Below are positions 29,939 through 50,695 of a stretch of DNA of 64,000 nt, piece after piece. A program made the position numbers and the translations under genes. Source of the stretch: Methanomassiliicoccus sp. Lineage in GTDB: Archaea; Thermoplasmatota; Thermoplasmata; Methanomassiliicoccales; Methanomassiliicoccaceae. Numbering within the stretch: position 1 is the first letter of the stretch; each line of letters starts with the position of its first letter. The stretch spans positions 62,001 to 126,000 of the forward strand of contig JADFDJ010000003.1 in the NCBI GenBank assembly GCA_018262895.1. Reading direction: 5' to 3'. The notes under the pieces are model-generated. The model was not told the DNA's origin. It worked only from the letters and a program-made list of their open reading frames with translations, and ran no database searches.

Positions 29939-29970
29939 TATAAATATTATGCTATATCTCGGGAACCTTG
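29939..29970 (+). promoter_or_regulatory. Strong TATA promoter of the E1-like gene
   Basis: TATAAATA at 29939-29946 is followed 25 nt later by the ATG at 29971, the spacing expected for a leaderless archaeal transcript. The surrounding 29880-29960 is very AT-rich compared with its neighbours. Confidence 0.6.
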
Positions 29971-30765
29971 ATGACGGCCATACGTGCCGGTGAGGGGGAC
30001 GAGGACCGCTGGGAGCGCTCCCGTCGTATCAAGTGGTTGGACATGGAGAAGGTACGATCCTCGAGCTTCCTGGTTGTGGGCGCTGGTGCTCTGGGAAACG
30101 AGGTGGTCAAGGACCTGGTACTTTCCGGCGCCCGGAATATAACCTTGGTGGACATGGACCGCGTCGTACGCTCCAATCTTAACCGCTGCGTCTTCTTCAG
30201 GGAAGATGACAGCGCAGCAAGGAGGCTCAAGGCCGAGGTTGTGGCGGAGAGGGCCCGGGAACTCGATCCCGATGTGGACATCCGTACCGTTGTGGGGAGG
30301 GTGGAGGACCTTCCCGAGGGCTCGTGGGGTAAACATAGCATGGTCTTGGGGTGCCTGGACAATGTGGCTGCCCGCCTTCATGTCAACTCATTCACTTATT
30401 TCAACATGGTGCCGTACATCGATGGTGGCACCAGCGGTCACGCGGGGAGGGTGCAGGTCATCCTTCCCCCGTCCACGCCGTGCCTGCAGTGCGGACTCAA
30501 CCGCAGTCATTACAGGATACTGGAACAAAGGAACTCATGCACTGGAACGGAGATGACCTACTTCCAGCCAAAGATGGCGGCGGATATCACCACCACAGCC
30601 ATGGTTGCGGCGGTGCAGGTCCGCGAGGCCCTCAAGGTCCTGAGCGGCAGGAGCGATTCGATCATCAGTAATGTCCTCCATTTCAATGGCCTGCACAACA
30701 CGTGGGAGGAGCTGGAGCTTTCCCGCGACCCCCTCTGTCCTCTCCATCGCGTGGACCTTGGGTAA
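29971..30765 (+). CDS. E1-like (ThiF/UBA family) ubiquitin-like-protein activating enzyme
   Basis: 264 residues. The Rossmann nucleotide site is VVGAGALGNEVVKDLV (about 35-50). Next come ITLVDMDRVVRSNLNRCVFF (adenylation aspartates), GCLDNVAARLHVN, and IDGGTSGHAGRVQVILP. A zinc site is likely from CLQC (171-174) and CPLH (256-259). C190 in RNSCTGTEM sits where E1 enzymes keep the thioester cysteine, followed by the ADITTTAMVAAVQVREALK helix. The SNLNR, LDN and DGGT signatures resemble eukaryotic UBA-type E1s more than MoeB or ThiF. It should adenylate the C-terminus of the neighbouring ubiquitin-like protein. There is no UFD domain, so it is a minimal E1. It has its own promoter; the ubl gene starts 70 nt downstream. 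Confidence 0.9.
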   Translation: MTAIRAGEGDEDRWERSRRIKWLDMEKVRSSSFLVVGAGALGNEVVKDLVLSGARNITLVDMDRVVRSNLNRCVFFREDDSAARRLKAEVVAERARELDPDVDIRTVVGRVEDLPEGSWGKHSMVLGCLDNVAARLHVNSFTYFNMVPYIDGGTSGHAGRVQVILPPSTPCLQCGLNRSHYRILEQRNSCTGTEMTYFQPKMAADITTTAMVAAVQVREALKVLSGRSDSIISNVLHFNGLHNTWEELELSRDPLCPLHRVDLG

Positions 30766-30800
30766 TATCAGAAAGCCTACACGGAACAGTCAGTATTATG

Positions 30801-30834
30801 TGTATAAATTAATTTTATACAATTGGTTGTATAA
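30801..30834 (+). promoter_or_regulatory. Promoter and nested palindromic operator of the ubiquitin-like gene
   Basis: TATAAATT at 30803-30810 is the likely TATA box. Two perfect inverted repeats overlap here: TGTATAAA-N5-TTTATACA (30801-30821) and TTATACAA-N4-TTGTATAA (30815-30834). They end one base before the ATG at 30836. The predicted transcription start (about 30830) falls inside the second palindrome, so a bound regulator would block initiation. The same arms occur at the cdc48 promoter. Confidence 0.6.
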
Positions 30835-30835
30835 T

Positions 30836-31093
30836 ATGCCCTTCAGGGTGAAAGTTAGGAACGCAGAGAGCGGGTCGACGGTAGACATGGAGCTTGAGCA
30901 GGAGAATACCGTGGAGGAGATCATCGAAGGTGCCGCAGGATACTGGGAAAAGGATGCTGGCGCATATGTCATCCGGAGAGGTAAGAAGCTGCTCAGGGGG
31001 CAACAGACGGTGTCGGAAGCAGGCATCCAGAACAACGACGAGCTGGAGCTTATCCCTGACCCCGAGGGCGGATTCAGTGGCCCTCCCTACTGA
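30836..31093 (+). CDS. Ubiquitin-like modifier precursor (beta-grasp, Gly-Gly plus six-residue tail)
   Basis: 85 residues. The beta-grasp order is visible: FRVKVRN and STVDMELEQ strands, the TVEEIIEGAAGYW helix, then AYVIRRGKKLL, GQQTVSEAGIQ and NDELELIP. The stretch GKKLLRGQQTVSEAGIQ runs parallel to ubiquitin's GKQLEDGRTLSDYNIQ. The C-terminus is PEGG (G78-G79) followed by FSGPPY, so it looks like a precursor needing cleavage after Gly-Gly. Lysines are few (K6, K39, K50, K51). ATG 30836 fits the promoter; the frame is open further upstream but that part is not protein-like. Its end overlaps the E2 gene by 17 nt. Confidence 0.88.
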   Translation: MPFRVKVRNAESGSTVDMELEQENTVEEIIEGAAGYWEKDAGAYVIRRGKKLLRGQQTVSEAGIQNNDELELIPDPEGGFSGPPY

Positions 31094-31586
31094 TATCCTG
31101 CTAGCGAGGTTGCGGAACGAGATCAGGGCGTGTGCTAGGTACATCACCTCCTCCCCCGACCTCCGCAACTCCAAGGAGGTCTCGTTTCCCATCGAGATAG
31201 AGGTGGAGCTGCTGAAGGTCCCCGGGCCCTGCGTCGAGGGGGAACGGGTCGTGCTGAGGTACAGCCACCGTCTGCGCATCAGCATTGGCAGGGACTATCC
31301 CTTCGTTAAGCCCCACATCACCTGGATGACGCCGATATTCCATCCCAACATCATGATGCCCGAGGATGGCGGCTACGTCTGCACCAAACTGTTGGAGGAC
31401 TGGAGCTTCAACTCCACCATGATCTCGTTCATCAAGGGAGTGGAGTCCCTGGTCACCACCCCCAACCCCAGCAGTCCCTTCGGAACGGACAGCTGCACGG
31501 CGGCGGCGGAGTACTTCAACAGCGGTGAGAGGAGGTTGCCGCCCATGCTTTCGGCCCCCGTCCCCAGGGTGGTGGGCCGGGAATGA
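31077..31586 (+). CDS. E2-like ubiquitin-conjugating enzyme
   Basis: 169 residues of UBC fold. RISIGRDYPFVKPHITWMTP matches the E2 'YPFxPP' strand. IFHPNI holds the HPN motif (H89-P90-N91) whose asparagine stabilises the oxyanion. GYVCTKLLEDWSF gives the catalytic C102 and the following tryptophan. SLVTTPNPSSPF and CTAAAEYF match the C-terminal helices of canonical E2s. It should accept the ubiquitin-like protein from the E1 on C102. The start is GTG 31077, inside the ubl gene, supported by GAGGGCGG 6 nt upstream. It overlaps the JAMM gene by ATGA, so translation is coupled. The residues after about 150 look disordered. Confidence 0.88.
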   Translation: MALPTDILLARLRNEIRACARYITSSPDLRNSKEVSFPIEIEVELLKVPGPCVEGERVVLRYSHRLRISIGRDYPFVKPHITWMTPIFHPNIMMPEDGGYVCTKLLEDWSFNSTMISFIKGVESLVTTPNPSSPFGTDSCTAAAEYFNSGERRLPPMLSAPVPRVVGRE

Positions 31587-32251
31587 GCCATCCTCTGATC
31601 GTGGGGAGACAGCAGGCGGATGTGCGCGAGGCGCCTCCCCCTTCTAAGGACAGGATCAAGGCCCACAAGTGGCTGACACTCAGGTGCCAGTCGGAGTACC
31701 GCTCCCAGGAGGCCACGGGGTTCGAGCTGTACATCTCCAAGGTGGCGGAGGAGAAGATGCGCAACCACGCGCTCATGCACGTGGAGGAGCGGAAGGAGGT
31801 CATGGGCCTGATGCTGGGGTCCATCTTCAGGTACGCAGGCAGGGAGTACACCGTTGTGCGCGATGTGGCCACCACCGATCTGGATGCAACCGAGGTGAGC
31901 GTACGCTTCGATCCCAACGCCTTCGAGAAGCTGTTCGCCTGCCTTGATGACATCGGGTTCCGGTATGTGATCGTCGGGTGGTACCACTCCCATCCCTCCT
32001 ATCATTGCTACATGTCCTCAACGGACGTGCAGACCCAGCGGGGGATGTTCAACATGCGCTGCCATTCGGCCGTGGTCATCGACCCGGTGAACAGGGAGAT
32101 CGAGGCCTTCTATCTGGAGGAAGGAAAGGTGAGATCGAGGCCTTTCGCTATATACTGGGACGAGTACCAGAGCCCTTATTACGGGACCACCGTACGCATG
32201 CGTCACACGGCCGAGGCGCCATGCCAGGGAGCGGTCACCGGACCGCGCTGA
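31583..32251 (+). CDS. JAMM/MPN+ metallopeptidase (Rpn11/CSN5-like deubiquitinase)
   Basis: 222 residues. The JAMM zinc site is complete: E72 in KEVMGLMLG, and HSHPSYHCYMSSTDVQTQ with H135, H137, S145 and D148. The spacing equals Rpn11 and CSN5 (HSHPGFGCWLSG-type), including the conserved cysteine before the serine. It likely trims the FSGPPY tail from the ubiquitin-like precursor and removes conjugates. The N-terminal 45 residues are variable and basic. It is the last gene of the ubl-E2-JAMM unit, and the next gene is convergent. Confidence 0.9.
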   Translation: MSHPLIVGRQQADVREAPPPSKDRIKAHKWLTLRCQSEYRSQEATGFELYISKVAEEKMRNHALMHVEERKEVMGLMLGSIFRYAGREYTVVRDVATTDLDATEVSVRFDPNAFEKLFACLDDIGFRYVIVGWYHSHPSYHCYMSSTDVQTQRGMFNMRCHSAVVIDPVNREIEAFYLEEGKVRSRPFAIYWDEYQSPYYGTTVRMRHTAEAPCQGAVTGPR

Positions 32252-34171: not shown

Positions 34172-34344
34172 AATTGCACCAATGCGCTCGGTCTATTCCG
34201 AACGAACAATGCAATGCGGGAGGGCATATTTAATTGCTGTTTATCTACATCGATGCCAGGAATCATCTCCCTTTATAACGCTGGAAGGCTGTGGGAATGG
34301 CAGCGCAATATATTTCCGTTATTAACCCATGACGCTTGGGTGGG

Positions 34345-37300
34345 ATGGTCACTCTGAGCGCGGACGTTGTAGACGAACGTTTATCCAGATTACGGAATGA
34401 TTTTATCGACACTACCCTGAGGAACAGGCTGGTGAATATGGGAGAAGGGTGCGCCGCCTGCATGTTCCTTTTCGGGACCTCTCCCGCGGAGATATACCGT
34501 GAGCTCGCGGTCAGCAACGGGTCGTTCATCGTCCGCGCCGCACCTTTGGAAGGCAGCACCGCGCGGTCGGTAGAAGGCCTCCACGTCGCCCCCTCAGACG
34601 GCCACGGCAAGGTCTCCCGTTCGCTCATGTTGATGTTCTCGAAGGCCCAGGAGGCCCGTGGCGCCAAGGGCGTCAACGTCCTGTTCCTGGCCCTGGGCAG
34701 CCTGGAGTGGTCGAGCGACGGCACACAGGGCAGGAGGGCACGCTCCCCCGTTCTCCTGATGCCGGTCCGCATGTCGCGCCCACCGTCCTCGGTGGACTTC
34801 GAGCTGTGGGCCGACGGGGCGGCCCTCCTCAATCCCGTCCTGGATTTCATGCTGCGCACCGAGATGTCGCTGGCCCTACCCCCTCTGGCCGAGGGCATGG
34901 TGGACGTGGACGGCTACCTCCAGGAGCTACGTGACCTTCTTGCCGACAAAGGCTGGGAGGTGACGGCGACAGCACACCTGGGCCTGTTCGAAATACCGCA
35001 CATGGCCGTCCATGAGGAGCTCGCGCAGTACCGGGACATGATGGTCGCTCATCCCGTGGTAAGGGCCATCGCCCAGGGCCGGGGCGCTTCGGAGGATTGC
35101 TCTGGCTCCGGGGATGCAGGCGACGCGGAAACATTCAGTGTCCTGGACGCGGATTCCAGCCAGCAGGAGGCGGTCTCCTTGATGCTCTCCGGGACCAGCT
35201 TCGTGCTGCAGGGTCCGCCCGGCACCGGAAAGAGCCAGACCATCGTGAACATGATCGCCGAGCAGATCGCCCGGGGTCGCAAGGTCCTGTTCGTTTCAGA
35301 AAAGAGGGCTGCCCTGGATGCGGTACGAAAGCGGCTGGAGACGAGGGGGCTGGGCCGGTACTGCCTTGACCTGTACGACCCCCAGAGGGACGTCCGCGAG
35401 GTGGCCGACGAGCTTAGCCGGTGCCTGCCACCCCTCCCGGCCCCCTCCGCGGCGACCTTCCCATGTGATGAGATGGAGCGATGCCGCGAACAGCTGGATG
35501 GATATGTGGAAGCTTTGCACCAGGTGCGGGACGGCCTAGGGATGTCCTTCTACGAGGTGCTCTCCGGACTCACCGAGCTGAGGTCTGCGGCCGAGGTCCC
35601 CTTGGGCTTCCCCGGTCTGGAAAGGATGAGCGCCAGATACCTTGAGTCCCTGCGGCCTCTCGTCACGGACATAGAGAAGCACGCCTCCCTGCTGGCATCG
35701 ACCGAGAGGCACCCCTGGGCGGACTGCGAGGTGGGGAAATGGCAGCTGAGCGCGCAGTCGGAGATCATGCGCCGGCTATCGGACCTGAAGCTCTCCCGGA
35801 CCCGGCTCGAGGAGGTTCTGGGTACCCTTTGCGGGGACTATGACCTTCCCGTCCCAAGGGACCTCAAGGGAACCAACGAGCTTACGGAGCACCTCCGTGC
35901 GATAAACCTCACCCACTACCCAGAGGAGAGCTGGCTGACCAACGATCCCTCGCCCTTGCTGGAGCTCGTGGAGGAAATCCAGGAATCGTACAGGTCGCGC
36001 CTGGAACGGATGACCTGGGTGAAACAGATGTACCGCGATGGTGTCCTGGACCTCGATCTTAAGGGCATCCAGGAGAGGGTCCTCCAAGGCAATAAGGTCA
36101 CCACCCGCCTTTTCGACCACGACTACCGCAGGGACATGAAGGCCCTGGAGGGCCTCAAGCGGGGAAACCGCAAGCTCAAGTATGCCCAGGCATGCTTCGA
36201 GCTCAAGGAACTGGTCGAGGTCAAGGACCTGATCTCACAGATCCAGAAGGAGGAGAAGGAGTGCGCCGAGCGTCTGGGAAAGCACTTCCAGGGGGACAGG
36301 ACGGACTGGGCCAAGACCGTCGAGGCCATCATGTGGACGCGCGACTACCGCTCCAAGTACGGGGTCCCGAAGACCCCGGGCATGACGCGCCTCCTGTGCT
36401 CCGGGCCGGAGGCCCTCGTGGGCCTCAAGACCAGGATAGATGCCCTCGACGAGGCCGCATTGCGCCTGGCCACGGCCATTTCGGCCGTAAGGGAGCGCTT
36501 CGATCTTAGCTCCCTCTTGAACGGGAGGAGCGTGAACGAGGTACCCTTCCAGGAATTGAACGACTGGGCCCAGATGCACCTCGACCACGGCACCTCCTTC
36601 CAGGAGTGGACGGAGATGGTGCGGGTCCAGAAGGAGGCAAGGGAGAGCGGCCTGGGGGACCTATTGATACTAGCCTCGGCCGGGAAGCTCCCCCCCGAGG
36701 GCACCTGGGAAGGGGTCCGCAAGAGGCACCTCACGCTGTGGCACGACCTTCTGCTAGCCCGTGACGACAGGCTGCGGCTCTTCGACCGGGAAGTCCATGA
36801 GCGGAGTGTGGCCCGATTTGCCGAATTGGACCGCCTGAGCCTGGAGGTGGCGACCTCGCGGGCCAGATGGGCGCTCGAAAGGCACCGCGGCGATGCCTTC
36901 AGGAACATCTCAGAGCAAAGCCAGGAGCAGAACTCCATACTCAAGGGCACGGTCCCCGCCAATGGGCAGGGAGGGCCCCTGAGGGAATTGTTCACCTCGG
37001 CCCTGGACCGTGTTCTTGCGATGAAACCCTGCTTCATGATGAGCCCCAGGGCGGTCACCGCCCTTCTGGACCCAGCCATCGCCCTCTTCGACCTGCTCAT
37101 CCTCGACGAGGCTTCCCAGATCCGCGTGGAGGACGGGATCGTCACCATGCTCCGCGCCAAGCAGGTGGTTGTCGTAGGGGACAGCATGCAGCTGCCCCCA
37201 ATGGATATGGCCATAGGTGCCGAGGCATCAGTGGCGGAGGAGCGGGAGAGCATCATGGACGCTTGCTCGGGGGCGCTGCCCCAGCGATCTCTCCTCTGGC

Positions 37301-39210
37301 ATTACCGTTCCCAGCAGGAATCCCTGTTCGCGTTCTCCAATGAAAAGTTCTACGGCGGCCGGCTGATGACCTACCCCTCAGCAACGCTTGATCGGGAGGA
37401 CCTGGGCGTCTCCTTCGTCCACGTTCCGGGGGCGCAGGAGGAAGAGGGCCGGTGCGACCACAGCGAGGCAGAGGCCAGGAAGGTGGTCGACCTGGTCCTG
37501 GAGCATATCGTTCATGGCTCCCGCGACTCCCTGGGAGTAGTTGCGTTCACGGAACCCCAGCAGGTCGCCATAGTGGCGGAGCTGGAGCGCAGGACCGCTC
37601 AGGATCATGCGCTGGCATCCCTTCTTTCCCACAGTAGGGAGGAGCCTTTCTTCGTCAAGACCCTGGATGACGTGCAGGGCGACGAGAGGGACGTGATAAT
37701 ATTTTCCACGGGCTACTGCAGGGACCGATCTGGCAGGATGTTCCTGAGCCTGGGCCTGCTGAGCGGAGAGATGGGCAGGAGGCGCCTCAACGTCGCCATA
37801 ACCCGGGCGAGGAAGCACGTCAAGCTGGTCTCCTCTCTGCTGCCTGAGGAGATAGAGGTGGATCCCTCTGGAAAGAACGTTCTGAGGGATTACCTTGAGT
37901 ACGCCGCGTGGCCGGGGCACGATGTGGAAAAAGGGAACAGCATGCGGGCACGGGACCCCATCGCGGACGATGTGCGAGCGCACCTGGAGGAGCGCGGCCT
38001 GAAGGTGGAGAGATCTGTGGGCATGTCCTCCAGCAAGGTCGATCTGGCCGTGGTCGATGACGAGCATCCCGGAAGATATATCCTGGGGATCCTCACCGAT
38101 GGCCCGTCCTACCGCAGGGCGGGAGGGACCAGGGACCGGGACCGGCTCCGGCAGGAGGTCCTCACCAACCTTGGATGGACACTTCACCGGGTATGGTCCC
38201 AGGATTGGCTCAGCGACCCCCAGGGGGAGGTGGACAGGATCGTGGCCGCGGTTGAGAGGAGCAAGGCTGCGTACGCGGAGAAGGAGGCCGATGAGGAGAT
38301 GAGGCCCCTGGAGGTTTTGGTGGCCTCCCTGGCAGTGGAGGACATGGCCGGGGCGTCCGACCCGCCTGCTGCCGTGGCCCTCGATGACGGCGCAAGTGGC
38401 GAGGGCTGGGGGTCCTCCGAGCCCGAACTGGACGGGACCCTCATGGCCTCCTTGTCGGCCGCAGAGGAGGTCGACCTTTCCGCGGAGTGCGGTTCCGTGC
38501 CCTTCGACACCGTATCGGAGCAGACCGACCTGATGACGGATGATGTGCCCGCCGTCCTCGCCGCAGAGCCGGACACCATGGCCGCGGACCAGGGTCTCTT
38601 GGCCTCGGAGGAGCCCCTCAGGGACCTGTGCGCCATCTATACCCGGGCCCGGCTGCATGAGGACCCGTCCCTGGTCTACCTGTTCACGCAGGACCACGAG
38701 GCGGCGATGCGGGAGGCGGTGTTCAGGGTCGTGGAGGAGGAGGGTCCGGTCCACCTGACCGTGGTCCGGGACCGGGTCAAGGAGCTGGTCTCGGTCTCAA
38801 CGGGCAAGCGCCCCTCCAACGTGGACAGGCTGGTCAGACCGGCGATCGGGTTCCTCGAGGATGAGGGGGAGATCAGGATCGAGGGCGACTTCCTGTGGCC
38901 TGCGGACCTCAGAACGGTTCGCCCCCGCCGCTGCTACTCTCCCCGGCGCGATATAGATCACGTTTGCGATGCCGAGATCGAGGCCATGGTGACGATGATC
39001 ACCGCCAGAACCCCGAAGATAAGGGTGAAGAGAGTGGTGAACGATGTCTCCGACCTCCTGGGCTACAAGCGGCCCACCGCTGCCATCAAAAAGCGGGTGG
39101 AGAGGATACTAGCCACCGTCGCCCCGGGCAGGACGAGGAAAGTGGCGGGCGATACCGCCGGTGGCCGGATGGACGACCTTGATGGCTTTGAAGAGGGGAG
39201 CTGGAACTGA
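34345..39210 (+). CDS. Large COG1112-type SF1 helicase with REase-like and DUF3320-like domains, copy 1
   Basis: 1621 residues. N-terminal DUF4011-like region (FIDTTLRNRLVN...GVNVLFLALGSLEW), Walker A GPPGTGKSQT (about 290), a long helical insertion (about 390-880), motif II LLILDEASQ (about 917), VVVGDSMQLPP, LLWHYRSQQESL, VQGDERDVIIFSTGY and RRLNVAITRARKHVKLV (motif VI, about 1150). A Vsr/MTES_1575-type nuclease-like domain (about 1205-1290: VDLAVV, GILTDGPSY, RDRDRLRQEVLTNLGW, RVWSQDW) and a C-terminal DUF3320-like region follow. Relatives are often linked to antiphage defence. ATG 34345 has GGGTGGG upstream and AATATAT near 34307. A paralogue begins 67 nt downstream. Confidence 0.85.
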   Translation: MVTLSADVVDERLSRLRNDFIDTTLRNRLVNMGEGCAACMFLFGTSPAEIYRELAVSNGSFIVRAAPLEGSTARSVEGLHVAPSDGHGKVSRSLMLMFSKAQEARGAKGVNVLFLALGSLEWSSDGTQGRRARSPVLLMPVRMSRPPSSVDFELWADGAALLNPVLDFMLRTEMSLALPPLAEGMVDVDGYLQELRDLLADKGWEVTATAHLGLFEIPHMAVHEELAQYRDMMVAHPVVRAIAQGRGASEDCSGSGDAGDAETFSVLDADSSQQEAVSLMLSGTSFVLQGPPGTGKSQTIVNMIAEQIARGRKVLFVSEKRAALDAVRKRLETRGLGRYCLDLYDPQRDVREVADELSRCLPPLPAPSAATFPCDEMERCREQLDGYVEALHQVRDGLGMSFYEVLSGLTELRSAAEVPLGFPGLERMSARYLESLRPLVTDIEKHASLLASTERHPWADCEVGKWQLSAQSEIMRRLSDLKLSRTRLEEVLGTLCGDYDLPVPRDLKGTNELTEHLRAINLTHYPEESWLTNDPSPLLELVEEIQESYRSRLERMTWVKQMYRDGVLDLDLKGIQERVLQGNKVTTRLFDHDYRRDMKALEGLKRGNRKLKYAQACFELKELVEVKDLISQIQKEEKECAERLGKHFQGDRTDWAKTVEAIMWTRDYRSKYGVPKTPGMTRLLCSGPEALVGLKTRIDALDEAALRLATAISAVRERFDLSSLLNGRSVNEVPFQELNDWAQMHLDHGTSFQEWTEMVRVQKEARESGLGDLLILASAGKLPPEGTWEGVRKRHLTLWHDLLLARDDRLRLFDREVHERSVARFAELDRLSLEVATSRARWALERHRGDAFRNISEQSQEQNSILKGTVPANGQGGPLRELFTSALDRVLAMKPCFMMSPRAVTALLDPAIALFDLLILDEASQIRVEDGIVTMLRAKQVVVVGDSMQLPPMDMAIGAEASVAEERESIMDACSGALPQRSLLWHYRSQQESLFAFSNEKFYGGRLMTYPSATLDREDLGVSFVHVPGAQEEEGRCDHSEAEARKVVDLVLEHIVHGSRDSLGVVAFTEPQQVAIVAELERRTAQDHALASLLSHSREEPFFVKTLDDVQGDERDVIIFSTGYCRDRSGRMFLSLGLLSGEMGRRRLNVAITRARKHVKLVSSLLPEEIEVDPSGKNVLRDYLEYAAWPGHDVEKGNSMRARDPIADDVRAHLEERGLKVERSVGMSSSKVDLAVVDDEHPGRYILGILTDGPSYRRAGGTRDRDRLRQEVLTNLGWTLHRVWSQDWLSDPQGEVDRIVAAVERSKAAYAEKEADEEMRPLEVLVASLAVEDMAGASDPPAAVALDDGASGEGWGSSEPELDGTLMASLSAAEEVDLSAECGSVPFDTVSEQTDLMTDDVPAVLAAEPDTMAADQGLLASEEPLRDLCAIYTRARLHEDPSLVYLFTQDHEAAMREAVFRVVEEEGPVHLTVVRDRVKELVSVSTGKRPSNVDRLVRPAIGFLEDEGEIRIEGDFLWPADLRTVRPRRCYSPRRDIDHVCDAEIEAMVTMITARTPKIRVKRVVNDVSDLLGYKRPTAAIKKRVERILATVAPGRTRKVAGDTAGGRMDDLDGFEEGSWN

Positions 39211-39277: not shown

Positions 39278-42200
39278 ATGATCGGCCGGAAGTCATCACC
39301 CCTAGAGCAGAAGATCCAGAGATGGCGGGAGGAGCTTCTGGACATGAGCCTCAGGAACCGGCTCCTTAACTTCAAGCCCCGCTCAGCGGTGCGTATAGTA
39401 GCGCCGCAGGCATCGGCGGTACTCGAGGAACTCGTGGTCAAATGCCGGACGATCCCCATTTTGGAGATGACAGCAGAGGAGTGCTCGGGCGATGTGCATA
39501 AACCATCCCCGGCCCCGGACCGGCTGTGGGTGCCTCACGACCCAAAGGGCTCGGACACCACCCTGAAAAGGATGCGGCTGCGGGCCCGCGGGTCGATCCA
39601 GGAGCAGGGCGTGAACATCCTCTTCCTGGCGTTGGGCATGGTCACATGGTACGATCCCAAGGACAAGGCCCAGGAGCTGATGTCACCATTGGTCCTGGTA
39701 CCCGTGGAACTGATCAAGGAGGGGCCTCTGGTTCCCTTCCGCGTCCGCGCCATCGATGACGACATCGTCGTCAACCCCAACCTAGCCTACAAGTTGAAGG
39801 TCGACCTCTCGCTCAACCTCCCAGAGTGGCCGGAGGAGCTCATCTCCTTGGACGGCTTCCTGGATAGGGTCAGGGCGTCCATCTCGGCCGCCCCGGGATG
39901 GAAGGTAGAGGCCAGCGCATATCTCGGTCTCTTCTCCTTCGCCAAGCTCAGCATGTACCAGGAGCTGCTGGTGGAGCACGAGAGGCTGGCCAAGCATCCG
40001 TTCATCAACGCGCTGGCCGGTAATCCGTCGCTGCTCCCGGCACTTCCCGACCATCCCAGGGCTGACCGCATGGATGCCATGGTCCGCCCCGCCGATTCCT
40101 TCCAGATCCTCGACGCTGATTCCTCGCAGCAGGAGGCCATCGAGATGTCCAAGCGGGGGATAAGCTTCGTCCTCCAGGGCCCCCCCGGCACCGGAAAGAG
40201 CCAGACCATCAGCAACATCATCGCCGAGGCCCTGGCGCAGGACAAGAGGGTGCTGTTCGTGTCCGAGAAGATGGCCGCCCTGGAGGTGGTCAAGGGGCGG
40301 CTGGAGGACAAGGGGCTGGGCGACTACATACTGGAGATCCACAGCCAGAAGGCCAGCAAGACCGCGGTGATGGAGGAGCTTCGCCGGTGCATGACGCCCG
40401 CTCCCGTACCCCCGGTGAACATGGACGACCTCAGGAGGCTGGAGCAGGTGCGCGACGAGATCAACGGGTATGTGCAAGCGCTCCACCTGGTGCGCGAACC
40501 GCTAGGCCGTTCTGCCTTCCAGGTCCTCTCTAGGCTGGCCACTCTGCACGAGGCGCCGGACCTGCCTGTATCCATCCCGGACACCGCCTCCATGCGCCCC
40601 GAGGACCTCGAAGCACGTCTGCGCCTGGTGAGGAGGGTCCAGGCCCAGCGTGCCCTGGTCGAGAGGATGGACGCTCACACCTGGAGGGACCTGCGGACAG
40701 ACGGCTGGAAGGCCGGTGACGAGGCAACCATGGCGTCGGCCCTGAGGGAGCTTAGGGACAGCGCTCAGAGGGTACAGGACATCACCTTGAGGGCAAGCGC
40801 GGCCGTGGGCATGAAGGCGCCCCGCTCCCTGGCCGAGGCCCAGGGGCTGCTGTCCCTGCTCCACCGCACCAGCTCCACCCCATACCCCGAGGGGTCCTGG
40901 CTGGTGCCGGGAAGACCGGGTTCCTTGCTGCAGGAGTGTGAGCTGCTGCAGAGGGCATACCGCCAGAAGGACGATGATGAACGGTGGGTCGGGGAGCGCT
41001 ACCACGAGGAGGTCCGGACCTTGGATGCCAAGGGACTCCTGTACCGGTTCGAGGCAGAGCACAGAGGCATTTTCCGCTCCCTCAGCTCGCGGTACAAATC
41101 TGATAGGGCCCTCGTCCTGCAGCATCGAAGGGACGGCCGCAGGCCCGATCACAGAGAGATCGTGTCGGACCTCCGCCGGATGTTGTCCAATGAGGAGCGG
41201 TCCCGAGAGCTGGAGGCCCGGGAGGCCGCCGCCGCTGGCAGCTTCGGATCTCGGTTCCACGGGCCCGGCACGGACTGGAACGAACTGAGGAGCAGCCTCA
41301 ACTGGACCGCCGATTACATCAGGGGAACGGAACCTCCGCTCCCGACACAGTTGGTCCAGGCCCTGTGCGATCCCTCCGGAACGGGGAGAACGCTGGAGAC
41401 CGCAGCCCAGGAGGGAGACGCTGCCGTGGCGGCCCTGTCCCGCTCCCTGGGCCAGATACAGCGCTCGTTCGAGCTCCGGGGCACGGCAGGAGCGCAGGAC
41501 ATGGGCCTGGAGGAGCTGACCCTGTTCGCGGAGCGTCATCTCGCGGACCTGCCGTCGATCAAGGAGTGGCTGGAGGCGGCCGCACTGGAGAGAGCGTGCA
41601 AAGAGCAGGGCCTGGCCGACCTGTTCCGGATGGGGAGGAGAGGGGAGCTTCCGGGAGGGGACATAGCGGCCGCGTTCGAGAAGCGCTCTTACCGGCAGTG
41701 GTTCGAGCACGTCTGCTCCATAGACGCCCGCCTCCGCGACTTCCGGGGGGAGGACCATGAGGAAGCCATCGCCCGCTTCCGGGAGCTGGACGAGAGGCAG
41801 ATGACGATCGCCCAGACGAGGCTCAGGGCCAAGCTGGCCGCGGGGATCGAGAAGGCTCTGAGCGCACAGGCGGAGAAGGGAAGCGAGCTAGCGGTCCTTA
41901 AGCGGGAGCTGGCGAAGAAGAAGAGGTTCAAGCAGGTCCGTCAGCTCTTCCAGCAGTGCCCGGACATCATCCTAAGGCTGAAGCCCTGCCTCCTGATGAG
42001 CCCGTTGTCCGTGAGCCAGTTCCTTGAGCCGGCGGCGGTCAGGTTCGACCTGGTGGTCTTCGATGAGGCCTCACAGGTCCGGCCAGAGGATGCCGTGGGC
42101 TCGATCATGAGGGGGACCCAGACCATAGTGGTCGGGGACAGCAAGCAGCTTCCCCCCACCTCGTTCTTCCGTAGCGAGGCGGGGGAGGTCGAGGACGAGG

Positions 42201-43804
42201 AACTGGAGGACCTGGAGAGCATACTGGACGAGTGCACCGCCCTCAGCATCAAGCAGCACATGCTCCTTTGGCACTACCGCAGCCGGCACGAATCCCTCAT
42301 CGCCTTCTCCAACCAGCGCATGTACGATGGGCTGCTGAACACCTTCCCCTCGGCAGGACATCAGGCGGGGGAGTGGGGCGTAAGCTACGTGCGTGTGCCT
42401 GACGGGGTGTACGAGAGGGGCAGCAGCCGGACCAATCCCGTGGAGGCGAGAAAGGTGGCCGAACTGGTGTTCGATCACTTCTCCCGCACTCCCGAAAGGT
42501 CTCTGGGAGTGATAGCCTTCAGCGAGGCCCAGCAGATGGCCATACTCGATGTCTTGGACGACCTCCGCCGGAAGAGGCCGGAGTTCGAGAGCCACTTCGC
42601 CGAGGACGGGGGCGAGGAGTTCTTCGTGAAGAACCTGGAGAGCGTGCAGGGCGACGAGCGGGACGTGATGATCTTCTCCGTCGGATACGGCAGGGACCCC
42701 CAGGGGAGGATGCACCAGAACTACGGGCCTCTGAACACCGCAGGTGGGGAGAGGCGCCTCAACGTCGCCATCACCCGGGCGAGGATGCACATCAAGCTGG
42801 TGGCGTCCATAGGCCCTGAGGACGTGGACGGCTCGATGAGCCAGGGAGCGAGGATGCTGAGGGACTACCTAGCCTACGCGGCCAGCGGGGGGAGAGAGGC
42901 CGCGCTCCCTGTCGCCCCGGAGAGAACGGCAGCGCTCACGTTCGGCACGGAGCTGGAGGACGACGTCCGTGACGCCCTGAGCCGCGAGGGATGGAGGGTG
43001 CAGAGGCACGTGGGGTGCTCCAGCTACCGCATAGATCTGGCCGTGGAAGACCCCTCCAGGCCTGGAGCTTTTCTGCTAGGCATAGTGTGCGACGGCGACT
43101 CCTACCGTTCCGGCAAGACCGCGAGGGACCGTGACCGGCTGCGGGACAAGGTGCTGAAGGGGCTGGGCTGGAACATCCACCACCTGTGGTCCCGCGATTG
43201 GGTGGAGAACAGAGGTCGGGAGCTGGAGAGGATCAGGGCAGAGATCGCCAGGGTCAGCGCCTCCCGGGCGGCCATGGGGGAGAAGGCGCCTGGGAACGTG
43301 GAGGCATCAAGGGATGGAACGGAGAGCGTACCCGAGGGACGGTCGCTCCTGAGGACGGTAATGGCGGACCTGGTCAGGAAGGAGGGACCGATAGACCGTC
43401 CGGGCCTGAGGAGCGCTCTCGCCAGGTCCGGCCTCGGGGAGGTGCCCGGGGACATGTTCGATGCCACTCTGAACGATATGGTCGCGGAGAGGTCGGTCAT
43501 GGCCAGGGGGGACTTCATCTGGCCTGTGGGCATGGCCCGACCCCCTGTAAGGGGACCCCGGGGGGCGGAGGCGGTGGCCCTCGGCCAGGTGGCCCCGGAG
43601 GAGCTGGGAGAGGCCGCGCTGTACGTGATGGGTGGCGATGTCCAGATCTCCAAGTGGGAGCTCCTCGACAGGTTGGCCCGCTTCTACCGCCATGAAAGGC
43701 TGTCGGAAGAGGATGTGAAAAGGGTCGATGATGCCCTCAGACGCTTGGTGGCGGCCGGTTTCCTTACCACCGGTGGAACCGACTCCTTCCGAAGGCCTCT
43801 GTAG
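39278..43804 (+). CDS. Large COG1112-type SF1 helicase with REase-like and DUF3320-like domains, copy 2
   Basis: 1508 residues, the same architecture as copy 1: LLDMSLRNRLLNFKPR and GVNILFLALGMVTW at the N-terminus, Walker A GPPGTGKSQT, a long helical insertion, LVVFDEASQVRPEDA, VVGDSKQLPPTSFF, LLWHYRSRHESLIAF, VQGDERDVMIFSVGYGRD, RRLNVAITRARMHIKLVA, the nuclease-like YRIDLAVEDPSRPGAF, GIVCDGDSYRSG, RDRDRLRDKVLKGLGWN, HLWSRDW, and a DUF3320-like end. It keeps the helicase motifs, so an ATP-driven nucleic-acid motor is expected. It ends in TAG. Whether the two copies act together is unknown. Confidence 0.85.
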   Translation: MIGRKSSPLEQKIQRWREELLDMSLRNRLLNFKPRSAVRIVAPQASAVLEELVVKCRTIPILEMTAEECSGDVHKPSPAPDRLWVPHDPKGSDTTLKRMRLRARGSIQEQGVNILFLALGMVTWYDPKDKAQELMSPLVLVPVELIKEGPLVPFRVRAIDDDIVVNPNLAYKLKVDLSLNLPEWPEELISLDGFLDRVRASISAAPGWKVEASAYLGLFSFAKLSMYQELLVEHERLAKHPFINALAGNPSLLPALPDHPRADRMDAMVRPADSFQILDADSSQQEAIEMSKRGISFVLQGPPGTGKSQTISNIIAEALAQDKRVLFVSEKMAALEVVKGRLEDKGLGDYILEIHSQKASKTAVMEELRRCMTPAPVPPVNMDDLRRLEQVRDEINGYVQALHLVREPLGRSAFQVLSRLATLHEAPDLPVSIPDTASMRPEDLEARLRLVRRVQAQRALVERMDAHTWRDLRTDGWKAGDEATMASALRELRDSAQRVQDITLRASAAVGMKAPRSLAEAQGLLSLLHRTSSTPYPEGSWLVPGRPGSLLQECELLQRAYRQKDDDERWVGERYHEEVRTLDAKGLLYRFEAEHRGIFRSLSSRYKSDRALVLQHRRDGRRPDHREIVSDLRRMLSNEERSRELEAREAAAAGSFGSRFHGPGTDWNELRSSLNWTADYIRGTEPPLPTQLVQALCDPSGTGRTLETAAQEGDAAVAALSRSLGQIQRSFELRGTAGAQDMGLEELTLFAERHLADLPSIKEWLEAAALERACKEQGLADLFRMGRRGELPGGDIAAAFEKRSYRQWFEHVCSIDARLRDFRGEDHEEAIARFRELDERQMTIAQTRLRAKLAAGIEKALSAQAEKGSELAVLKRELAKKKRFKQVRQLFQQCPDIILRLKPCLLMSPLSVSQFLEPAAVRFDLVVFDEASQVRPEDAVGSIMRGTQTIVVGDSKQLPPTSFFRSEAGEVEDEELEDLESILDECTALSIKQHMLLWHYRSRHESLIAFSNQRMYDGLLNTFPSAGHQAGEWGVSYVRVPDGVYERGSSRTNPVEARKVAELVFDHFSRTPERSLGVIAFSEAQQMAILDVLDDLRRKRPEFESHFAEDGGEEFFVKNLESVQGDERDVMIFSVGYGRDPQGRMHQNYGPLNTAGGERRLNVAITRARMHIKLVASIGPEDVDGSMSQGARMLRDYLAYAASGGREAALPVAPERTAALTFGTELEDDVRDALSREGWRVQRHVGCSSYRIDLAVEDPSRPGAFLLGIVCDGDSYRSGKTARDRDRLRDKVLKGLGWNIHHLWSRDWVENRGRELERIRAEIARVSASRAAMGEKAPGNVEASRDGTESVPEGRSLLRTVMADLVRKEGPIDRPGLRSALARSGLGEVPGDMFDATLNDMVAERSVMARGDFIWPVGMARPPVRGPRGAEAVALGQVAPEELGEAALYVMGGDVQISKWELLDRLARFYRHERLSEEDVKRVDDALRRLVAAGFLTTGGTDSFRRPL

Positions 43805-46005: not shown

Positions 46006-48147
<2,142 letters not shown>

Positions 48148-48184: not shown

Positions 48185-48236
48185 CTATACAACTAAAGGT
48201 TGTATAGATAATAAAAAACAGTTATTGTATATAAAA
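48185..48236 (-). promoter_or_regulatory. cdc48 promoter with palindromic operator
   Basis: Read on the minus strand, TTTTATATAC (48236-48227) is the TATA box. A perfect inverted repeat CTATACAA-N7-TTGTATAG (48185-48207) begins where transcription should start, about 25 nt downstream of the box centre. A further half-site TTGTATA overlaps the TATA box (48226-48232). The arms match those at 30815-30834, although the spacer is 7 rather than 4 bases. Confidence 0.6.
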
Positions 48237-49314: not shown

Positions 49315-49621
49315 GACGATATGATAATTGTCCTCTTAAATCGACGAACCTCAGTCGGTCCACGAATATCGCCGATGGTTCTGGGAGATGCTCTTCGATG
49401 TAACTAGTCCATCATGTGCCTGAACTAAAAAATTATGATATCAAGGAGCCCCCGATTGTCGCTTATGGATCCATTAGTGGAGGCTCAACAAACCCAGGCA
49501 AGATGGTATTATCCCTTTCCTCAGCCCGAACGGATGATTATGATCAGATCATGAAATGCAAGATGTCGTCACTAGAACTGGGGTCACCACCTTCTTATCG
49601 GGCCATGCTATACTGCATCGG
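49315..49621. other. Region upstream of the methyltransferase gene
   Basis: A plus-strand open frame runs 49416-49709, but it overlaps the methyltransferase in another frame and has no recognisable features. I see no credible gene here. GCTATACT near 49608 may be promoter-like. Confidence 0.3.
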
Positions 49622-50695
49622 GTGGCAGTGCGGTCTGCGATACCGGATTTCCCTGGAACGGGACATCGATTTCCGTCCACAAGATATCAGGGCTCAAAAC
49701 AAAAGCTAGTGGGCTGGATATGGGATTCCATAAAGGACCTTCCCTTCGATAGCCTTCTCGATGCTTTCAGCGGAACTGCCTCCGTAAGCTACCACGCGAA
49801 GCAGCATGGCAAAAGCGTGGTGTCCAATGATATTTTGAAGTTCAATCACCAGATAGCGCTCTCTTTGATCCAGAACGACAGTGTTACGCTCAGCGATAAG
49901 GATATACTGAAGGTCCTGACCAGAGACCCATCGGTGGAATACCCGACATTCGTTCAGGACACGTTCAGAGATATCTACTACACCGATGAGGAGAATGCCT
50001 TCCTGGACATGGCCATAACGAACATCTCCCGTCTTGACGATGATATGAAAAAGGCCTTGGCATATTCTGCTCTGGGACAGGCCTGCCTTGTGAAGAGACC
50101 GTTCAACCTGTTTCATCGGAAGAACCTTTATGTCAGGTTGGCCGAGGTTGAGCGGTCCTTTGGGAACAAGGCCACCTGGGATGGAGATTTCGCAGAATAC
50201 TTTTGCAGGTTCGCAGAGGAGTTCAACCGTGCGGTGTTCGCCAACGGCCGAGAGAACAGGGCGTTGAACACTGATGCCTTCGACCTCACCGAATCGACGG
50301 ATCTGGTCTACATCGACACCCCCTACGTATCCGAAGGAGGGGTGGGAGTTGACTACTCTCAGTTCTACCATTTCCTCGAGGGCATGGTGGACTATGAGAA
50401 TTGGGGGTCCCGGATAGACATGGGGTCCAAGCACCGTCGCCTGGTTGTAGAGAGATCGCCATGGACAGATAGGAAGGAGATCGTGGGAGCCTTTGATCGG
50501 CTAATAAGGAAGTTCGATGATCGAACGATAGTAATCTCCTATAGATCGCCTGGCATACCTACAGAGGAATTTATCTGCGAGATCGTGGGACAATACTGCG
50601 GTGTCGTAAAGGTGGTCAGGAAAGAGTACAAGTATGTTCTAAGCAAGAGAGAGGAACAGAAGAACGGCGAGCTGCTCATCATCGGCCATTCATAA
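49622..50695 (+). CDS. D12-class DNA adenine-N6 methyltransferase (orphan)
   Basis: 357 residues from GTG 49622. RYQGSKQKLVGWIW and motif I LLDAFSGTASVSYHAK (45-60) bind SAM. Motif IV is DTPY (232-235 in LVYIDTPYVSEGG), a variant of DPPY. SNDILKFNHQIALSLI and CLVKRPFNLFHRKNLYVR match Dam-like class alpha enzymes. The start is uncertain; frames open to 49556, but the family core begins near RYQGSK. No restriction enzyme gene is adjacent, so it is an orphan methylase or a remnant of a restriction-modification system. It lies in a gene-poor accessory stretch. Confidence 0.8.
   Translation: MAVRSAIPDFPGTGHRFPSTRYQGSKQKLVGWIWDSIKDLPFDSLLDAFSGTASVSYHAKQHGKSVVSNDILKFNHQIALSLIQNDSVTLSDKDILKVLTRDPSVEYPTFVQDTFRDIYYTDEENAFLDMAITNISRLDDDMKKALAYSALGQACLVKRPFNLFHRKNLYVRLAEVERSFGNKATWDGDFAEYFCRFAEEFNRAVFANGRENRALNTDAFDLTESTDLVYIDTPYVSEGGVGVDYSQFYHFLEGMVDYENWGSRIDMGSKHRRLVVERSPWTDRKEIVGAFDRLIRKFDDRTIVISYRSPGIPTEEFICEIVGQYCGVVKVVRKEYKYVLSKREEQKNGELLIIGHS

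Follow-up and report, generated by a model that had tools for sequence, protein, structure and literature searches.

A putative Phr/HSR1-type heat-shock operator at cdc48 genes of Methanomassiliicoccus, and a ubiquitin-like gene palindrome that is probably not a copy of it

Introduction

Archaeal Ubl-E1-E2-JAB gene clusters of the Caldiarchaeum type are known, and E1-like, ubiquitin-like (Ubl), E2-like and JAB genes likewise occur in a row within the 64,000-nucleotide stretch of Methanomassiliicoccus DNA analysed here (the window). Our comparison with these clusters concerns the promoter, whose order-wide element is not of the Phr/HSR1 type. The heat-shock regulators Phr and HSR1 are both members of arCOG01684, a regulator family acting on hsp20 and cdc48 (PMC5852551). 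Phr, whose targets are hsp20 and an AAA ATPase (PMC9133787, PMC10746257), covers the start site and blocks polymerase, and HSR1 binds CTAAC-N5-GTTAG at its own promoter (PMC9133787).

The cdc48 system analysed here resembles both. As with HSR1 of Archaeoglobus fulgidus, a YAAC-N5-GTTR inverted repeat occurs both in the promoter of the regulator gene and at hsp20/cdc48, and the regulator gene is adjacent to cdc48. Unlike the HSR1 operator, however, the arms here are extended to TANACAAC/GTTGTNTA, and cdc48 in this family has its own operator-bearing promoter, with a second, unlinked paralogue that carries an operator as well. As with Phr of Pyrococcus furiosus (2P4W), the candidate regulator, P0004, is an ArsR-like winged-helix protein of ~200 aa, the operator is predicted to overlap the start site, and hsp20 and an AAA ATPase gene are the putative targets, although the similarity of P0004 to Phr is moderate, falling under the cut-off of the curated Phr model, and the TTTA/TGGTAA/AAAA elements of Phr are unlike the operator arms here.

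Results

An earlier note on this DNA described palindromes with shared arms at the ubl and cdc48 promoters and suggested that modifier and unfoldase are under common control. The features on the ubl side are as follows.

29968-30765, plus strand: E1-like ThiF-family protein, upstream of ubl (PF00899, 5.2e-52)
30764-30793, plus strand: degenerate copy of the order-wide ubl promoter element, AATATCAGAAAGCCTACACGGAA, from leader alignment
30801-30821, plus strand: overlapping palindrome TGTATAAA-N5-TTTATACA, including the likely ubl TATA box (30801-30809)
30815-30834, plus strand: ubl palindrome TTATACAA-N4-TTGTATAA, lineage-restricted and not a cdc48-type operator
30836-31093, plus strand: ubl, encoding a ubiquitin-like protein of 85 aa with the C-terminus ...GGFSGPPY (E = 9.6e-5 to PF00240, under the curated cut-off)
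30894-31586, plus strand: open frame with the E2-like (UQ_con) gene (PF00179, 3.8e-13; true start probably near 31100)
31583-32251, plus strand: JAB/MPN deubiquitinase-like protein (PF01398, 4.8e-14)

The features on the cdc48 side lie on the opposite strand.

46006-48144, minus strand: cdc48-2, a CDC48-family AAA+ ATPase with CDC48 N domains, 712 aa (TIGR01243, 1056 bits)
48185-48207, minus strand: cdc48-2 operator CTATACAACCTTTAGTTGTATAG, with an ACAAC-N5-GTTGT core and predicted to overlap the transcription start (31.7 bits)
48228-48235, minus strand: predicted cdc48-2 TATA box TTTATATA, with the operator edge ~24 nt downstream

Re-reading of the sequences confirmed that both palindromes are present at these promoters as described. 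The ubl palindrome reads TTATACAA-TTGG-TTGTATAA within the full leader TGTATAAATTAATTTTATACAATTGGTTGTATAATATG, and the cdc48 palindrome reads CTATACAA-CTAAAGG-TTGTATAG, present in the cdc48 leader as CTATACAACTAAAGGTTGTATAG at 48185-48207. In two respects the description needs adjustment. The interval originally given at ubl, 30801-30834, spans two overlapping palindromes, of which the reported one occupies 30815-30834 and the other contains the likely TATA box. At cdc48, the palindrome is real, but the N7 notation is better replaced by CTATACAAC-N5-GTTGTATAG, as the additional C/G pair forms part of the conserved core. A search of the window for TATACAA-N0-14-TTGTATA returned these two copies and no third (shuffles give 0), which upholds the observation that no other copies occur there, and the genome-wide arm search that had been proposed as a check, run with the same spacer range, found the same two and no third in 2.34 Mb, with 0 matches for the reversed control pattern.

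Comparison with relatives defines the conserved unit at cdc48 as ACAAC-N5-GTTGT plus flanking TA steps, giving the site pattern TANACAAC-N5-GTTGTNTA. Allowing one mismatch at most, a search for TANACAACNNNNNGTTGTNTA returned 18 sites in 15 genomes of the family, all of them 30-245 bp upstream of cdc48, and the spacer is exactly N5 in every one of the 18 operators. At the same stringency, this genome has matches only at its two cdc48 paralogues, of which one is in the window and the other on contig C28. The window gene, cdc48-2, is the second paralogue and is 74% identical to cdc48-1 on C28; at the cdc48-2 gene of G008, a version of the operator with 2 mismatches retains the spacer unchanged. 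The distribution of cdc48-2 is patchy, with copies 81-86% identical in 4 of the 15 family genomes (loci including those in G013, G007 and G008), and G008 has cdc48-2 while its ubl is undetectable. In the window, cdc48-2 adjoins a Type II/D12-class adenine methyltransferase gene (49556-50695).

Beyond the family, a YAAC-N5-GTTR core is found ~540-620 bp before cdc48 in the sister families f3, f4 and f6. Two of these loci were read through (L093 in f3 and L086 in f6), and in both the core precedes an apparent Hsp20 gene transcribed towards cdc48. For f2, one genome was read through (L090); there the core precedes the regulator gene, which is directly followed by cdc48. A wider regulon was sought in the Methanomassiliicoccus genome with the relaxed pattern GTWNNYAACNNNNNGTTRNNWAC, which returned the regulator promoter and cdc48-1 only. 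The stricter pattern with 2 mismatches gave four matches (one each on C3 and C25, two on C11), about the number anticipated by chance (~7 by our own estimate; 1 for the reversed control). The cdc48 palindrome is operator-like in its strict conservation at the cdc48 genes of the family, and it overlaps the predicted transcription start, in agreement with the original description.

The winged-helix gene P0004 (204 aa; L074:5394-6008, minus strand) is single-copy in this genome and ends ~0.6 kb before cdc48-1 on C28. Its best match in the PDB is Phr of P. furiosus (2P4W; E = 2.2e-14 with the single sequence and 2.6e-21 with a profile), which makes Phr its nearest characterised relative. The best NCBIfam model is Phr_regulator (NF053602), at 59.9 bits against a curated cut-off of 320; because this is far below the cut-off, we regard P0004 as a member of the wider group and do not call it a Phr orthologue. 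Of the 101 genomes of the order, 86 contain matches to P0004, which adjoin cdc48 in nearly all of those. Its own promoter carries GTTGTTAAC-N5-GTTAATAAC, read as the core TTAAC-TTGAA-GTTAA (TTAAC-N5-GTTAA), and YAAC-N5-GTTR precedes the regulator gene in most genomes examined.

Two further reading frames were observed in this neighbourhood. A small ORF of ~50-56 aa (MNPDVPERERTPVPKRKWKPLDGPE...) separates the operator from cdc48-1 (in L074 it spans about -209 to -42 relative to cdc48); it recurs in L081 and other genomes of the family, occupies the position of hsp20 in sister families, and might possibly encode a Cdc48 partner peptide. A coiled-coil-like protein of ~100 aa is encoded between the regulator and cdc48/hsp20 across families (relative to cdc48, -576 to -277 in L074, -917 to -612 in L093 and -942 to -613 in L086).

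The ubl palindrome was measured against the cdc48 operator using a symmetric weight matrix trained on 24 sites of the family, with none taken from this genome; left-out true sites score 21-37 bits on it. The cdc48 site scores 31.7 bits, the next best position in the window 4.7 bits, and the ubl palindrome 0.1 bits, which lies outside the range of known sites and at the level of noise. The ubl leader contains one perfect half-site, GGTTGTATA, identical to that of cdc48-2; its ACAAC/GTTGT half-sites, however, are separated by 2 bp with one mismatch, 3 bp short of the N5 spacing. When ubl orthologues were examined for the palindrome, none was seen outside G000, G009 and G011; G009 retains it intact, and in G011 a single arm base differs. 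The overlapping repeat at 30801-30821 shows the reverse pattern, being intact in G011 and broken in G009. The earlier note had named lack of conservation upstream of orthologues as evidence against its proposal, and this is what we observe for ubl. With its spacing, score and conservation all departing from those of the cdc48 operator, the ubl site does not appear to share that operator, and the data do not support joint regulation of modifier and unfoldase.

Additional observations bear on how the likeness of the arms arose. No cdc48-2 gene was seen in G011, which is 99% complete, and the cdc48-1 operator of that genome has the arms TAGACAAC rather than TATACAA. Together, these findings imply that the shared TATACAA arms are peculiar to the pair in this genome and do not reflect an ancestral regulon. 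Such arms do arise by chance, as illustrated by a TATACAA palindrome (N4) where an ORF for an unrelated membrane protein begins in the low-GC genome G008 (C1:47372) and by another among relatives (N12; C1:327639) that falls within a coding frame. The window is rich in perfect inverted repeats: counting those whose arms are 8 or longer and whose spacers do not exceed 10, it contains 20, as compared with 6-19 in Markov sequences. When the ubl leader is shuffled, ~4% of the products contain a palindrome with an arm of at least 8. Of 300,000 shuffles, 24 contain the exact arm sequence of cdc48; the likeness of the arms is unusual per promoter, but it was chosen post hoc.

An alignment of 29 ubl leaders across the order revealed a different element, TTATCAG-N5-CTAACTGTGAT (also given as TTATCAG-N5-CTAACTGTGATG), located just before the TATA region. 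It is weakly palindromic (TATCA...TGATA), is present upstream of ubl in L012-L038, and is strongest in f3, f4 and f6 and decayed in f1. The degenerate form of the element has 17 matches in 101 genomes, 7 of them at ubl. As a candidate regulatory site of ubl, the TTATCAG element is the better of the two, and it is unrelated to the Phr/HSR1-type operator.

Between the two loci lie tandem giant helicase-nuclease genes (window 34336-39210 and 39278-43804; DUF4011, AAA_11/12, REase_MTES_1575), for both of which PDC-S37, a candidate defence model in PADLOC, gives a nearly full-length match and Hhe a partial one.

Discussion

The cdc48 site is most likely a Phr/HSR1-type operator, because its geometry, targets and neighbourhood match those of the Phr/HSR1 repressors. 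Taken as a whole, the sequence comparisons make it very probable that 48185-48207 is an operator for a heat-shock repressor of this type, that 30815-30834 is no copy of it, and that ubl lies outside the regulon. From the observed conservation, target set, regulator homology and spacing, we infer a circuit involving dimer binding, repression and release on heat at predicted transcription starts. The repressor would be the ArsR-like winged-helix protein P0004, encoded once, beside cdc48-1. At each cdc48 promoter and at its own, a P0004 dimer would cover the transcription start and, at normal temperature, block RNA polymerase; upon heat or proteotoxic stress the dimer would leave, allowing Cdc48 to be made. 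The ubl palindrome itself is an inverted repeat confined to this lineage, and most likely arose by chance out of TATA/initiator-like sequence in a leader that is short and AT-rich.

Other origins for the ubl palindrome can be weighed against chance. Archaeal repressor sites often sit in the TATA/start region, and the two overlapping repeats (30801-30821 and 30815-30834) fall exactly on the predicted TATA/start region of ubl, as might be expected if the palindrome served a different regulator, one confined to this species group and without connection to cdc48. This explanation is unlikely, as each of the close relatives breaks one repeat (G009 the first, G011 the second) and arms of 8 appear in ~4% of leader shuffles. 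An RNA hairpin over the start codon, exerting translational control, seems far less probable still. In the folded strand an 8-bp stem with a UUGG loop would stand directly before the AUG, but the fold is no better than that of shuffled sequences (z = -0.48), on which ground we rejected it, and it is not conserved; moreover, as the predicted transcription start is inside the repeat, most of the stem may be missing from the transcript.

A single Phr/HSR1-like regulator might instead bind both sites, with ubl recently recruited to the Cdc48 heat-shock regulon in this small clade. The ubl operon would then have newly entered the regulon through its half-site and a shortened second arm, and would share stress control with Cdc48. 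In accord with such recruitment, the arms match at 7 of 7 positions on both sides and occur genome-wide only at these two places, and the half-site is identical to that of cdc48-2. We retain a small residual probability for it because the exact cdc48 arms are much rarer in leader shuffles than 8-base arms are. Nevertheless, we consider both the shared regulator and the stress-controlled ubl operon that it implies to be very improbable, given a half-site spacer of 2 where 5 is invariant, a noise-level matrix score, damage to the site in G011 and its absence from other ubl orthologues, and the lack of any cdc48-2 seen in G011.

These results remove a tempting but unsupported link between an archaeal ubiquitin-like system and Cdc48. 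The putative operator at cdc48, by comparison, would extend to the Methanomassiliicoccales the Phr/HSR1 circuit, here comprising a precise operator and a regulator encoded once, and its small, specific target set (the cdc48 paralogues, hsp20-cdc48 and the regulator) makes the circuit testable. If the heat-shock reading is true, retention of the operator at a second, unlinked cdc48 gene suggests strong selection on stress-controlled Cdc48 dosage.
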